A stretch of DNA of 64,000 nt, taken from NCBI RefSeq assembly GCF_019924045.1, contig NZ_JAHXBN010000013.1:186001-250000 (forward strand). Direction: 5' to 3'. The position numbers and the translations under genes were made by a program. Each line of letters begins with the position of its first letter. Within the stretch, counting starts at the first letter, position 1. Under the pieces are notes generated by a model. That model saw only the letters and a program-made list of their open reading frames with translations, made no database searches and had not been told where the DNA came from. Below, one piece after another: positions 1,015 through 53,980 of the stretch. This DNA comes from Dyadobacter fermentans (GTDB lineage Bacteria > Bacteroidota > Bacteroidia > Cytophagales > Spirosomataceae).

Positions 1015-2427
1015 ATGAAAAAATACATCCAAACGATAGCCCTAGCAGCCTTAATAGCAGGTACTTGGAGCTGCAAGGACTCTTTCCTCGAACTGGCGCC
1101 GGTATCCAACCCGAGTGCGGAGAATTTTTACAAAACAAAGTCGGATTTCGACCTCGCGGCTAATGCGGCCTACAATACGCTTTACACCGTGTACCACCCG
1201 CAAGGTCCGGTTTCTTACGCTGGCGAGCTGATGTCCGACAATGTCACGATCTACAATATTTCCGGTAACCAGGCCGATAAGTGGCAGTTCCGCGACTACA
1301 CGCTCGCACCTGCGAACACGATGGTATACCAGTTTTGGCAGGACTTTTACCGCTCGATTTACAACATCAATATCATTCTCGATAAAATCCAGAACGCCGA
1401 CCTTGACGCCACCTACAAAGCCCAGACACAAGGCGAAATGTTGTTCCTTCGCTCGCTGTATTACTTCAATATGGTGCAGCTTTGGGGTGATGTGCCGTTG
1501 GTAACACGACCGGTTAGCGCGGCGGAGGCTTACGATATCCTGCGCACTCCTTCAACGGAAATCTATGCGCAAATCACGAAAGATCTCGCTGATGCAAAAT
1601 CCAAACTCCCGGGCACTCCGGCCATTGCCGGCAGGGCTACCAAAGGGGCGGCGCAGACGTTGCTCGGGAAGGTGTACCTCACGATCGGTGACAAAGCTAA
1701 TGGAGTGAAGGAACTCAAAGAAGTGTATGACAGCAAGCAGTACGATTTGCTGCCTGCGTACGCTTCGCTTTGGGATGCCAAAACCAAGAATACGAAAGAG
1801 TCGATCTTTGAAATACAGTTCCTGGGCGGCTCGGCGACCTCGCCATACAGCAACTATTACCTCGAATTTTTCCCTAATTCCAATGCATTGGGCTTCTACG
1901 GCGCGGGTATGAATCAGGTCGTGGAAGATGTCTGGAATGAGTACGAGAAAGGGGATGGTCGCCGCGAAGCTTCCATCGATACGGGCTTTACTGATGCAAA
2001 AGGGAATTTTACCAAAGCGAAATTTCCTAAAAAATGGCAGGATAAAACTGCACCACTGATTAACCAAAACATCGCTGCCAACAACAACTTTATGGTGTTG
2101 CGCTACGCGGACCTGCTGCTGCTGCTCTCGGAAGCGACCGGCGACGCTACTTATCTTAACCAGGTACGCAAACGCGCCGGACTGCCGCTTTACGGAGAAG
2201 CCGGCTATCCCGCGAAATACAACACCGTGGCATTGGCCGTAGAACACGAACGCCGCGTGGAACTCGCATTTGAGTTCCATCGGTGGTTCGATTTGAAGCG
2301 TACCAATCGCGTAGTCGATGTTTTGACCGCGAAAGGTAAGCCTGTGACGCAAAACAAGCTTGTTTTCCCGATCCCGAATATTGTCAGGGACCAAAACACG
2401 AGGATCACGCAGAATGCAGGGTATTAG
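1015..2427 (+). CDS. SusD/RagB family outer-membrane glycan-binding lipoprotein
   Basis: SusD-type lipoproteins sit on the cell surface, bind glycan and close over their SusC partner. I chose the ATG at 1015 over the upstream in-frame ATG at 925 because it starts directly with a lipoprotein signal (MKKYIQTIALAALIAGTWSC, lipid-modified Cys20) and the upstream extension is repeat DNA. The protein is 470 residues, normal for the family. The C-terminal motif around EHERRVELAFEFHRWFDLKR is the family hallmark. It pairs with the SusC just upstream. The substrate is probably a plant pectin-type glycan, judging from the GH140 and GH127 enzymes that follow. Confidence 0.95.
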   Translation: MKKYIQTIALAALIAGTWSCKDSFLELAPVSNPSAENFYKTKSDFDLAANAAYNTLYTVYHPQGPVSYAGELMSDNVTIYNISGNQADKWQFRDYTLAPANTMVYQFWQDFYRSIYNINIILDKIQNADLDATYKAQTQGEMLFLRSLYYFNMVQLWGDVPLVTRPVSAAEAYDILRTPSTEIYAQITKDLADAKSKLPGTPAIAGRATKGAAQTLLGKVYLTIGDKANGVKELKEVYDSKQYDLLPAYASLWDAKTKNTKESIFEIQFLGGSATSPYSNYYLEFFPNSNALGFYGAGMNQVVEDVWNEYEKGDGRREASIDTGFTDAKGNFTKAKFPKKWQDKTAPLINQNIAANNNFMVLRYADLLLLLSEATGDATYLNQVRKRAGLPLYGEAGYPAKYNTVALAVEHERRVELAFEFHRWFDLKRTNRVVDVLTAKGKPVTQNKLVFPIPNIVRDQNTRITQNAGY

Positions 2428-2449
2428 AGTTTGTGAGTTTAGAGTTCAT

Positions 2450-2556
2450 GAGTTGAAAGTTTGAGAATCTGGCGTCGTTACTGAACTCATAAACTTTCAA
2501 CTCTCCATCCTCTCTTTCCTCCACTCCCTTTCCTCCATCCCCCCTTTCCTCCATCC
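2450..2556 (+). promoter_or_regulatory. Hairpin followed by a polypyrimidine tract before the GH140 gene
   Basis: GAGTTGAAAGTTT (2450-2462) is the exact reverse complement of AAACTTTCAACTC (2491-2503), a 13-bp stem with a 28-base loop. From about 2500 to 2558 the strand is almost entirely C and T, with three copies of CTTTCCTCCA at 2514-2523, 2528-2537 and 2544-2553. The GH140 ATG follows at 2560. There is no purine-rich ribosome-binding site. The hairpin may be a weak terminator or processing site downstream of susD. The function is not established. Confidence 0.45.
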
Positions 2557-7841: not shown

Positions 7842-8294
7842 ATTAAGATGAGATGGTTTGGCAGCGTGAGACATTGTCGGGCATTTGTTGTAGCGTGCCT
7901 ACGGCACTTTCTAAACACGCTGTGATTGTTTTGCTACCGATGTTACATCCCTGACGGGATTTTTTCGTAGGATATGTAGTCCCGCTGGGGACGAAACATT
8001 GGTAGTAAATGCGTTGTAGCAAGTAGATTGAAAATGCCGTAGGCATGTAACAACATTGAGAAGGTTGTCCTGGTCGCTAAATTACGCGAACCGTGGGAAT
8101 ACGAATGGCGCTGTGCCCTGCCAGGGTATCCTGTTTGTAGCAATTACACGAACGTAAATTTCGCCAAGCTCCATCGGAGCTTCCTTAATGCACAGACGTC
8201 AGGAGGCTCCGACGAAGCCATTGATCCATGTAAGATTTGTTGGTCTATAAGCAGGTGGCCGCGCCGTGGCAGGGCGTTTCCGCAAAGATGTTAT
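7842..8294. repeat. Repeat-rich gap with short covarying hairpins
   Basis: This 450-base gap holds no convincing gene. It has several short hairpins with 3-base loops: GTGCCTACGGCAC (near 7893), ATCCCTGACGGGAT (near 7946), ATGCCGTAGGCAT (near 8033) and AAGCTCCATCGGAGCTT (8166-8182). Two are attached to CTACCGATGTTAC or its reverse-oriented relative. The stem bases change in compensating pairs between copies. The same unit recurs at 28578-28755. This looks like an interspersed palindromic element. No transposase is nearby. Confidence 0.7.
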
Positions 8295-8618
8295 TTAACT
8301 GTCCATGCCTATCGTTTGTGTTTGATTGTATAATTGCCTGTTCCAATTGTATTCTGAAAGAGTTCCCAAAAACAAAATGTATAGTGTTCCTGCAGGGAAA
8401 TGAATAGTGGCAGTTAGGTGATAGTCGTTTCCGGAAATGTTAAAAACAAATCTGTGGTTACCAATGTGCTCCGCCGAATTGAAGGACTTTTTTAAATCGG
8501 TTGGACAGGACCACTCGGCTCGCTTTACAATATCATACCATTCATCCAGGGATTCACAGATGCGCGGTAATCTTACGGTATAGCGATTGATAAGAATTGA
8601 TCTTGTCAGGATGACCAT
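8295..8618 (-). CDS. HigB-like toxin (mRNA interferase family), no visible antitoxin
   Basis: The 107-residue product follows the HigB_toxin pattern: a Trp-containing helix (DEWYDIVKRAEWSCP), DLKKSFNSAEHIGNHRFVFN, GNDYHLTATIHFPAGTLYILFLGT and EYN. HigB toxins cleave mRNA at the ribosome and normally precede a HigA antitoxin. None follows here: the next 450 bases downstream are repeats with no helix-turn-helix frame. The usual GTHAEYD motif near the C-terminus reads GTLSEYN, so the catalytic-region His appears to be lost. The gene may be a decaying or inactivated remnant. The family match is by eye and fairly good. Confidence 0.7.
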   Translation of the reverse strand: MVILTRSILINRYTVRLPRICESLDEWYDIVKRAEWSCPTDLKKSFNSAEHIGNHRFVFNISGNDYHLTATIHFPAGTLYILFLGTLSEYNWNRQLYNQTQTIGMDS

Positions 8619-8722
8619 GATTTGCTGAGTGAAATGTTCGAGTATTCAATATCTGAAGTCGCCCCTAATCAAATGAAATCCTTTACCCGAATAACGCTAA
8701 TCGGTTATCCTACGGCCAAACC

Positions 8723-10530: not shown

Positions 10531-10760
10531 GTCAGGAATAGTCAGGAAGTAGTCAGAAGGTGGTCAGGAAGTAGTCAGGAAATAGTCAGGAGGTGGTCAG
10601 GAAATAGTCAGGAAGTAGTTAGGAGGTGGTCAGGAGGTTATCAGGAGTGTATGGACAACAAATGGCCACGCATGATCATCCATGACCCAAATGACTACAC
10701 GTGACCACAAATGACAAAACATGACAAAACATGACAAAACATGACCACAAATGGCGACGT
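10531..10760. repeat. GTCA/TGAC short-unit array A
   Basis: From 10531 to about 10648 there are ten or eleven units of mostly 11 bp starting GTCAGG (for example GTCAGGAAGTA, GTCAGGAGGTG). From about 10651 to 10760 the orientation flips to units with TGAC at a 10-bp period, including three consecutive ATGACAAAAC copies. The array fills the spacer between deoR and the isomerase gene, both on the plus strand. Related arrays occur at 38351-38720 and 53541-53980. Here the arms share only the GTCA/TGAC core, so pairing between them would be poor. Confidence 0.85.
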
Positions 10761-28496: not shown

Positions 28497-28577
28497 CAAT
28501 GACTGAATGGTTGAATGATTGACCGGGTCGCCGGAGCGATGATTGAATGGCTGAATGCGGGGGGAATCGCTTAGCGA

Positions 28578-28755
28578 TGCAACATTGGTAGAAATGGAAC
28601 GGGTTACGGTTGGATGAAAATCCCGTCAGGGATGTAACAACAGTGCAGTGGCGATGTGGCATGCGATGCAATTGTAGTTGCATGCCCAAGGGCATTTGGC
28701 CAATATTCGGCGTGCAGATTTACTACCAATGTTGCATGCCTGACGGCATTTGTCT
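28578..28755. repeat. Second cluster of covarying palindromic units
   Basis: GCAACATTGGTAG at about 28578 and CTACCAATGTTGC at about 28723 are exact inverted copies flanking ~130 bases. Inside and beside them are ATCCCGTCAGGGAT (near 28620), ATGCCCAAGGGCAT (near 28681) and ATGCCTGACGGCAT (near 28736). The unit CTACC-R-ATGTT-R-CAT-N-CCTGACGG-N-ATT matches the one near 7934. No coding sequence is seen from 28497 to 28761. Confidence 0.7.
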
Positions 28756-28761
28756 CGTTGT

Positions 28762-38344: not shown

Positions 38345-38350
38345 TTCGGG

Positions 38351-38720
38351 ATGGTCAAGAATTGTCAGGTGTAGTCAGGTGTAGGCATGAATGGTCAAGT
38401 ATTGTCAGGTGTAGGCAAGTGTAGTCATGAATGGTCAAGTATTGTCATGTGTTGTCAATTATTGTCAGATTCTGATTTGACTCTACGTCTGACTATTCAT
38501 GACATTCCTGACTATACCTGACCACACCTGACTACACTTGACTATACCTGACCACACCTGACTATTCCTGACTACACTTGACTATACCTGACCACACCTG
38601 ACTATTCCTGACTACACTTGACTATTCCTGACCATACCTGACTACACCTGACCACACTTGACTATTCCTGACCACACTTGACCATTCATGACAAAACACG
38701 ACCACGCCCTGCTACACATG
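38351..38720. repeat. GTCA/TGAC decamer array B
   Basis: From 38351 to about 38470 the sequence runs in steps of 10 bp, mostly of the form TTGTCAGGTG or TGGTCAAGTA. From about 38475 to 38720 it runs as about 24 decamers of the opposite orientation, such as CACCTGACTA and CACTTGACTA. The arms are complementary (GTCAGGTG with CACCTGAC, GTCAAGTG with CACTTGAC), so transcript or single strand could fold into a long imperfect duplex. It fills the 405-base spacer between two plus-strand genes. Its last units (ATGACAAAACACGACCAC) resemble the right arm of array A. Confidence 0.88.
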
Positions 38721-38749
38721 GTTTTTCACGCATTCATTAACTTTTACCA

Positions 38750-53540: not shown

Positions 53541-53980
53541 TTGTCGGACGTGGTCAAGTGTTGTCAAGTGTTGTCAGGTGTAGTCAGGTGTCGTCAGGTG
53601 TTGTCAGGTGTTGTCAGGTGTGGTCAAGAGTTGTCAGGTGTAGTCAGGTGTGGTCAAGTGTAGTCAGGTATTGTCATGTGTCATTCGTGGTCAAGTGGAG
53701 TCAGGTGTTATCAGCGAAGTCAGGTGTTGTCGAGTCTTGTCGATTGGTCATTTGCGCCGCGAACCAAGTGGTTGGGTAACTGTCATTCAATTGGAAATTG
53801 TCATGGAGTCAATTGTTGCCGTGGAATCAATGCTGCTATTCTGACAATACTTGACTAGATCTGACTACTCCTGACTATTACTTGACAATACCTGACTCTC
53901 CTGATTATTACTTGACAACACCTGACAACACTGACAATACCTGACCATTCTTGACTATTCCTGACCATTCCTGACAAAGT
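53541..53980. repeat. GTCA/TGAC decamer array C
   Basis: From 53541 to 53680 there are 14 consecutive 10-bp units such as TTGTCAGGTG, TAGTCAGGTG and TGGTCAAGTG, with further degenerate units to ~53750. After a ~90-base middle, opposite-orientation units (TACTTGACTA, CACCTGACAA, ATTCCTGACC) run from ~53841 to 53980. The arms are complementary. The array fills the 466-base spacer between hmgA and hpd, both on the minus strand. A periodic reading frame at 53528-53779 is a by-product of the repeat. Confidence 0.88.

Follow-up and report, generated by a model that had tools for sequence, protein, structure and literature searches.

Two-armed arrays of degenerate GTCA decamers at gene ends in Dyadobacter: a possible hairpin element standing in for canonical terminators

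One spacer of the window, by which is meant the whole 64,000-nucleotide stretch of DNA analysed here (contig C35:186001-250000 of the 8.0 Mb, 173-contig Dyadobacter fermentans genome, designated G000), holds a two-armed array of degenerate 10-bp units, with a 5' arm built on GTCA and a 3' arm built on TGAC, that belongs to a large family of such arrays in this genome and its relatives. These arrays lie between genes, keep a fixed order of arms, are able to pair arm to arm, agree in the lengths of their two arms, grow in place, and occupy spacers with fewer canonical terminators. We give a probability of about 0.4 to the reading that the paired arms may serve a gene-end hairpin function and stand in for canonical terminators; that RNA polymerase would stop at the arrays, or that RNA would be stabilised there, is what we infer from these features.

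The array from which the analysis started, array B, occupies the spacer between a Meth_synt_2 gene and a carboxymuconolactone decarboxylase-family gene, both on the plus strand, and begins 9 nt past the stop codon of the former (Table 1). Its left-arm units follow one another in exact 10-bp steps from 38354 to 38464, with GGCA in place of GTCA at 38384 and 38414, and a gap of 10 bp (38468-38477) separates them from the right arm, whose perfect TGAC stand at 38478, 38490, 38500 and 38509 and from there at 10-bp intervals as far as 38689. The initial annotation had counted about 12 left-arm and 24 right-arm units at an exact 10-bp step. The left-arm count stands, whereas the right arm comes to 22 perfect TGAC followed by decayed units; likewise, the exact step holds in the left arm but not at the start of the right, where the first steps are 12, 10, and 9 bp. 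The annotation was correct that the two arms have unit variants in common in complementary form, and the array itself is confirmed by direct reading, by TRF, and by position counts. TRF also reports higher-order periods of 20, 30, and 40 bp, which indicates that blocks of units were duplicated repeatedly. Rfam has no match at gathering score anywhere in the window, and below threshold array B draws five miRNA or snoRNA hits only, the best at 30.4 bits against a required 79.

Table 1. Positions in the window of array B, its flanking genes, and two further arrays of the same family.
Feature	Position	Strand	Basis or context
Upstream gene, Meth_synt_2 domain protein, 353 aa	37283..38344	+	PF01717, 4.1e-12
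Array B, left (5') arm: 12 GTCA+6 units, 10 perfect, 2 GGCA	38354..38467	+	Sequence, position count
Array B, core, including the first two TGAC	38468..38493	+	Search of 48 genus genomes
Array B, right (3') arm: 22 perfect TGAC, with 40-bp higher-order repeats inside	38478..38692	-	Sequence, TRF, position count
Array B, decayed right-arm units (CGAC and similar)	38693..38720	-	Direct reading of the sequence
Short sequence (ATTCATTAACTTTTACCA) preceding the next start codon, probably left from the ancestral short spacer	38732..38749	+	Visual comparison with G059, whose empty spacer is 25 bp
Downstream gene, carboxymuconolactone decarboxylase-family protein, 183 aa	38750..39301	+	PF02627, 4.5e-14
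Array A, same family as B, left arm mostly of 11-bp units	10531..10745	.	Between a DeoR-type regulator gene and a Fucose_iso_C gene
Array C, same family as B	53553..53975	.	Between an HgmA_N (homogentisate dioxygenase-like) gene and a glyoxalase-superfamily gene

Array B is one of many. Over the whole genome a pattern of four successive units matches 306 times on the plus strand and 304 times on the minus strand, as against 0 and 0 for the reversed pattern, which places GTCA decamer arrays far above chance. Two further members lie in the window: the genes around array A are co-directional, and those flanking array C are both on the minus strand, the glyoxalase-superfamily gene among them matching HPPD only below threshold. 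Statistics for the own genome were drawn from 1.664 Mb of its 8.0 Mb (C9:1-1100000, C17:1-500000, and the window). This sample contains 34 arrays, weak ones included, that together make up 3.9 kb, and 22 have five units or more; the steps between units are 10 bp (241 cases), 11 bp (21), 9 bp (5), or 12 bp (2), the longest arms reach 33 units, and arrays of one arm also exist.

Judging by unit composition, the grammar common to the family is GTCA-D-D-N-R-T-N. Among 225 in-phase units from arms with at least five perfect units, GTCA is perfect in 94.7%, T occupies position 9 in 92%, a purine (A or G) occupies position 8 in 92%, and outside GTCA the share of C stays at or below 5.3% everywhere. 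Within-arm mean pairwise identity over 25 arms is 0.94-1.00 in GTCA and 0.80 at T9, whereas the remaining five positions lie at 0.41-0.63. These arms had been picked by their GTCA, and TRF, which is blind to the motif, served as an independent check: in-step GTCA or TGAC occurs in 37 of 44 intergenic TRF arrays of period 10, 20, or 30 (28/28 of those at least 40 bp long) and in none of 11 genic TRF arrays of these periods, whatever their length. For period 11 the count is 4 of 7, and for period 21 it is 0 of 10. Plain slippage does not predict that the motif be so nearly confined to intergenic arrays, and the suggestion in the initial annotation that simple slippage might be enough fails on the grammar itself, in which GTCA and T9 stay fixed while the other positions vary.

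The arrays recur in related genomes, where the initial annotation had proposed to look for them. A five-unit pattern matches 47 of 222 genomes and 4 of 36 genera of the family and, as counted from the results table, 33 of 48 Dyadobacter genomes, the reversed control giving 0 in every row; the number of five-unit matches per genome ranges from 0 to 440 within the genus. In a sample of the phylum 3 of 395 genomes match with the own genome included (2 of 394 others); one match, in G602, is a near-perfect repeat of another kind (GTCATCCGGC), and the reversed control also matches in one genome of this sample, G607. A broader two-arm scan found at least 106 stretches, and 51 of the 80 that are named belong to Dyadobacter. 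Other names among the matches listed are Spirosoma, Fibrella, Flavobacterium sp. SUN052, and metagenome-assembled genomes (MAGs) with the possibly erroneous labels Cytophagales, Prolixibacteraceae, Chitinophagales, Bacteroidota, Planctomycetota, and Thermoanaerobaculia. The grammar, with little C at positions 5-6, a purine as a rule at 8, and T at 9, is kept in Spirosoma (63 units, T9 share 0.81), in Flavobacterium SUN052 (15 units, 0.93), and in a Cytophagales MAG (14 units, 1.00), three Dyadobacter species having T9 shares of 0.97-0.98. The Bacteroidota MAG KLAP56 (L149, L152, L165) carries GTCATTGGGC/GTCATTAATC arrays of a variant grammar with C at position 10, and only 0.56 of its 27 units have T9. 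A viral link was considered and set aside: five IMG/VR contigs match the two-arm pattern and none is a clear relative, since L361, L363, L364, and L365 bear dense GTCATGAC palindrome repeats that are apparently unrelated and L362 has a near-perfect unit lacking T at position 9.

The position of the arrays relative to genes was established for 78 two-arm arrays whose arms each have four units or more, 12 from the own sample and 66 among the matches listed for other genomes. None of the 78 lies inside a called gene, in agreement with the expectation of the initial annotation that such arrays occur only between genes; the calls came from a home-made hexamer ORF caller trained on the own genome and applied to other genera. 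Twenty-five arrays stand between two plus-strand genes, 22 between two minus-strand genes, 24 between convergent and 2 between divergent genes, and 5 at a contig edge. Own spacers that reach 70 bp, of which 491 are tandem, 75 convergent, and 185 divergent, served as background, and against them two-arm arrays are rarer in divergent spacers (p 1e-6) and commoner in convergent ones (p 6e-7), in a test that sets arrays of several genomes against the spacers of one. Within tandem spacers the array starts at a median of 11 nt past the stop codon and leaves 45 nt to the next start, and in convergent spacers the arms begin at medians of 11.5 and 9 nt from the two stops.

The order of the arms is equally regular. 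Wherever two neighbouring arms in the own sample are unlike, GTCA precedes TGAC (15 of 15 pairs); order was counted in this set only, because the pattern of the broader scan itself required GTCA first. The numbers of left and right units are correlated (Spearman 0.58, p 3e-8, n=78), although this correlation could instead reflect array age. For the RNA of positions 38345-38700, folding prediction yields a minimum free energy of -145.6 kcal/mol (z -10.8 against 100 dinucleotide shuffles) in which 100 of 109 predicted pairs join the left arm to the right, bearing out the earlier view that the arms of array B can pair. Permuting the right-arm units, which was done for 77 of the 78 arrays under a length limit of 420, leaves the mean folding energy unchanged (mean z -0.16, s.e. 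0.12), array B scoring -134.6 against a mean of -135.8 for permuted order, and two tests of register give only weak signals (z about 1.5 and 2.3). Selection on arm register was thus discarded after three tests, two of register and one of permutation, that were weak or null. The initial annotation had held that arms no more complementary than shuffled decamers would speak against a maintained function, and this is partly the case, in that the order of units is untuned; the arms pair because all units share one grammar and not because unit order is matched. Compared for wobble bias in tandem spacers, the 5' and 3' arms differ only slightly. It had also been proposed that every GTCA of array B faces one side of the helix. 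With a helical repeat of about 10.5 bp per turn, an exact 10-bp step falls out of phase by half a turn over some 10 units, so that 12 or 22 units would probably not share one face. An RNase III-type processing hairpin and a transcription roadblock, also suggested there, would be further possible roles.

The history of array B can be traced in orthologous spacers. Its upstream gene has a close ortholog in 12 relatives, and the downstream gene adjoins it in 8 of these. The spacer measures 230 bp in G066 and 208 bp in G081, with diverged arms around the same core, and it is short in G059 (25 bp), G076 (33 bp), G054 (31 bp), and G056 (30 bp); in G078 it is at most 50 bp, some coding end still included, and in G094 its 171 bp carry a different inverted repeat and CATTCACT octamers. 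These lengths were determined separately for array B, for which the flank-BLAST table counts 78 bp of the next gene. With up to three mismatches allowed, the core of array B is found once per genome in 3 of 48 genus genomes, the own included, and at the orthologous locus only, and a mere 1 of 231 pairs of own arrays share an exact 24-mer. On the simplest reading of these comparisons, array B would have been born once in the ancestor of three species and grown in place, and would not be a copy of a roaming element.

Fifteen own array spacers were followed in the same manner through seven relatives, with boundaries set by BLAST of the flanks, and 104 of the 105 orthologous spacers could be classified (one lacked a right flank). 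Thirty-seven hold a two-arm GTCA array, defined here by at least two in-step units per arm; 6 hold one arm, a few of which may be chance TGAC in other repeats (e.g. locus 2 in G094); 18 hold another inverted repeat (score at least 16); 39 hold none, a class that takes in a 36-bp GTCA hairpin of G094 at locus 8; and 4 are shorter than 30 bp. Two-arm arrays are kept once in G059, twice in G061, and once in G078, and arrays are kept in 14 of the 15 orthologous spacers of G066. Given the 39 spacers without a long inverted repeat and the 4 below 30 bp, the element is dispensable at many sites.

Arrays of other build occupy some of the same spacers. By manual reading, 9 of the 18 other-repeat spacers contain two-armed octamer arrays (GAATGATT/AATCATTC; loci 0, 2, 14) and 2 contain heptamer arrays (CCGACCG/CGGTCGG; loci 0, 5); the orthologous spacer of array C bears octamer arrays in G061 and G078 and is reduced to 9 bp in G094. 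At least six two-armed families are found in the own genome, namely the GTCA decamer, the heptamers GACCNNN, ARGCNNT, and AGTTTA-like, the octamer GAATGA, and a polypurine family, and simple motif scans over these six show the arm order of the family kept in 53 of 53 two-arm spacers, 39 further spacers having one arm. Inverted repeats scoring at least 16 occur in 138 of 743 own spacers (92 tandem, 35 convergent, 11 divergent). Swapping of families at preferred spacers is seen, but not clearly beyond chance, because the rate of other long inverted repeats among orthologous spacers without a GTCA array (18/61) is close to that in own tandem or convergent spacers (127/566) and the 18 rows are not independent, several coming from one locus. 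The non-decamer heptamer, octamer, and polypurine families sit at gene ends in C9 and C17, and two tandem repeats in the window (2424-2463 and 2503-2558) resemble other unit families.

If the arrays work at gene ends, each would be a two-armed 3'-end hairpin element grown in place, in which slippage would add and remove units separately in each arm while both arms keep one unit grammar, such that any left unit could pair with any right unit. The RNA of either strand would fold to one long stem just past the stop codon, and the element would form a two-way gene-end signal without a T-tract, acting in termination or pausing and in 3'-end protection, and could stand in for canonical terminators. 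As in intrinsic terminators, a stable hairpin is predicted past the stop codon; the GC-rich stem with T-tract that such terminators carry was found in only 1 of 15 array spacers. The home-made terminator scan took 15 decamer two-arm spacers, tandem ones only from 100 bp upward, and calls a canonical hairpin with T-tract in this one of them; where tandem or convergent spacers lack a long inverted repeat the call is made in 97 of 309 (one-sided p 0.03), and where they hold another long inverted repeat, in 25 of 101. That single terminator lies beside the array.

Convergent locus 8 shows terminator loss in three of its array-bearing genomes. Array-less relatives have spacers of 67-68 bp there, with a terminator in G059, G076, and G078 and not in G061; G066 has both array and terminator; and the scan calls no terminator in G000, G081, or G094, the last of which carries only its 36-bp GTCA hairpin. 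In G000 and G081 the array includes a mosaic palindrome with TTTTT at its end, which the scan does not call and which might itself terminate. This palindrome and the background rate of long inverted repeats weaken the gene-end reading, and several other observations weigh on it: the order of units is untuned, a canonical terminator persists next to the array at locus 1 of the own genome, and other hairpins replace the arrays at a rate that does not clearly exceed the background. Array C parts genes that resemble one catabolic (homogentisate-pathway) operon, where a full stop would hurt, and array A likewise lies between co-directional genes. Pairing alone, moreover, would favour uniform units, and it leaves unexplained why five of ten positions, GTCA and T9, are fixed and the rest free.

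The fixed positions are what would be expected if a sequence-specific DNA- or RNA-binding protein read tandem GTCA...T as a silencer, roadblock, or nucleoid anchor, the two arms being two facing tracks. The near invariance of GTCA and T9 against the freedom of the other positions speaks for such a reader, with the reservation that the arms were found by their GTCA, as do the T9 grammar of Spirosoma, Flavobacterium SUN052, and the Cytophagales MAG and the existence of one-arm arrays. A reader nevertheless seems unlikely to us: exact 10-bp spacing would drift round the helix, the sites are at gene ends and not promoters, families with other cores at like sites would each need a reader, T9 is weak in KLAP56, and no factor came out of the survey, which covered Y1_Tnp proteins. 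It is possible, though we lean against it, that the arrays are the product of neutral or selfish in-place growth, in which slippage-prone motifs survive downstream of genes and off promoters and the hairpin is a by-product. Rapid turnover between close species with many empty orthologous sites, ongoing duplication as seen in the 20-, 30-, and 40-bp higher-order repeats, the spread from 0 to 440 five-unit matches inside one genus, and an excess of other long inverted repeats at orthologous sites that is just slight over background all fit this explanation, which also expects avoidance of genes and promoters. Slippage would amplify any motif, however, yet the motif-blind TRF survey found GTCA/TGAC in most intergenic and in none of the genic arrays; nor does neutral growth predict a fixed arm order, correlated arm lengths, or enrichment in convergent spacers.

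We also weighed the possibility that the arrays are dispersed repeats mobilised, like REP/BIME elements, by a REP-associated Y1 transposase (RAYT); Y1_Tnp proteins are encoded in 47 of 48 genus genomes, and the fixed-order palindromic build of the arrays recalls REPs. We regard this origin as very improbable and as largely refuted by the core search, the 24-mer sharing, and the Y1_Tnp survey. Array-less genomes such as G051 also have Y1_Tnp, the core of array B is restricted to one locus of three genomes, and exact 24-mers are almost never shared between own arrays. In the own genome a different mosaic repeat, ending in GTAG, lies on one side of the Y1_Tnp gene at C9:956467-956955, and CGTC-containing palindromes follow the Y1_Tnp gene near C9:177007; at both places inspected, of three in this genome, the gene has repeats other than a GTCA array beside it. 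The GTAG-ending palindrome mosaic at C9:954962-956466 (AATGCCGTCAGGCATGTAATATTGGTAG and relatives) beside its Y1_Tnp gene is likely a REP/RAYT system in its own right. Related pieces lie in the window spacers 7842-8722 and 28497-28761, and a decamer array at C9:443287-443700 has a GTAG-type mosaic copy in its middle, as it does in G081 but not in G066 or G094.

More broadly, the arrays could represent a new class of element, comprising order-locked two-armed arrays of at least six families that swap at gene-end spacers as terminator stand-ins, with a trans-acting factor common to several Bacteroidota genera reading the GTCA-D-D-N-R-T-N grammar, a compound proposal that we consider doubtful. 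If gene-end structure is kept while unit families swap between closely related species, the arrays would offer a natural test of selection on hairpin shape versus sequence and a system for the study of how bacterial terminators are born and replaced. They would also generate repeat-driven differences among close species, and their fixed grammar would point to a putative factor that could be sought.

A literature search, to which most subscription-journal papers were out of reach, found, among the papers listed, no description of GTCA decamer arrays or of two-armed tandem arrays, and the nearest known systems differ from them in build. Pairs of neisserial DNA uptake sequences serve as terminators and resemble the arrays as short recurrent motifs in inverted pairs at gene ends; they are single fixed 10-12-mers, whereas the GTCA arrays are tandem and degenerate. 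Terminator hairpin clusters have, by definition, stems of 2-10 bp (PMC8355165), unlike the predicted fold of array B with its 100 inter-arm pairs and no T-tract. The TAACTGA heptamer repeats are direct repeats of up to 43 copies in Beggiatoaceae, Cyanobacteria, and five Bacteroidetes, and share with the GTCA arrays short intergenic tandem units, a patchy distribution, and presence in some Bacteroidetes (PMC4679880). In the best-studied genome they lie mostly just upstream of start codons (PMC4679880); theirs is a fixed 7-mer in direct orientation, in contrast to a degenerate decamer in two inverted arms placed, at the median, 11 nt after stops. REPs, palindromes of 20-40 bp that bear a tag, either GTAG or CGTC, have dispersed copies and RAYT transposases and, with BIMEs, are like the GTCA arrays extragenic (0/78 arrays in genes), palindromic, often clustered, and present as several families per genome (PMC3733652). 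In place of a tag at the foot of a palindrome the arrays carry GTCA every 10 bp, and in place of dispersed near-identical copies they have 10-bp degenerate units, two separate arms, and cores specific to their loci.
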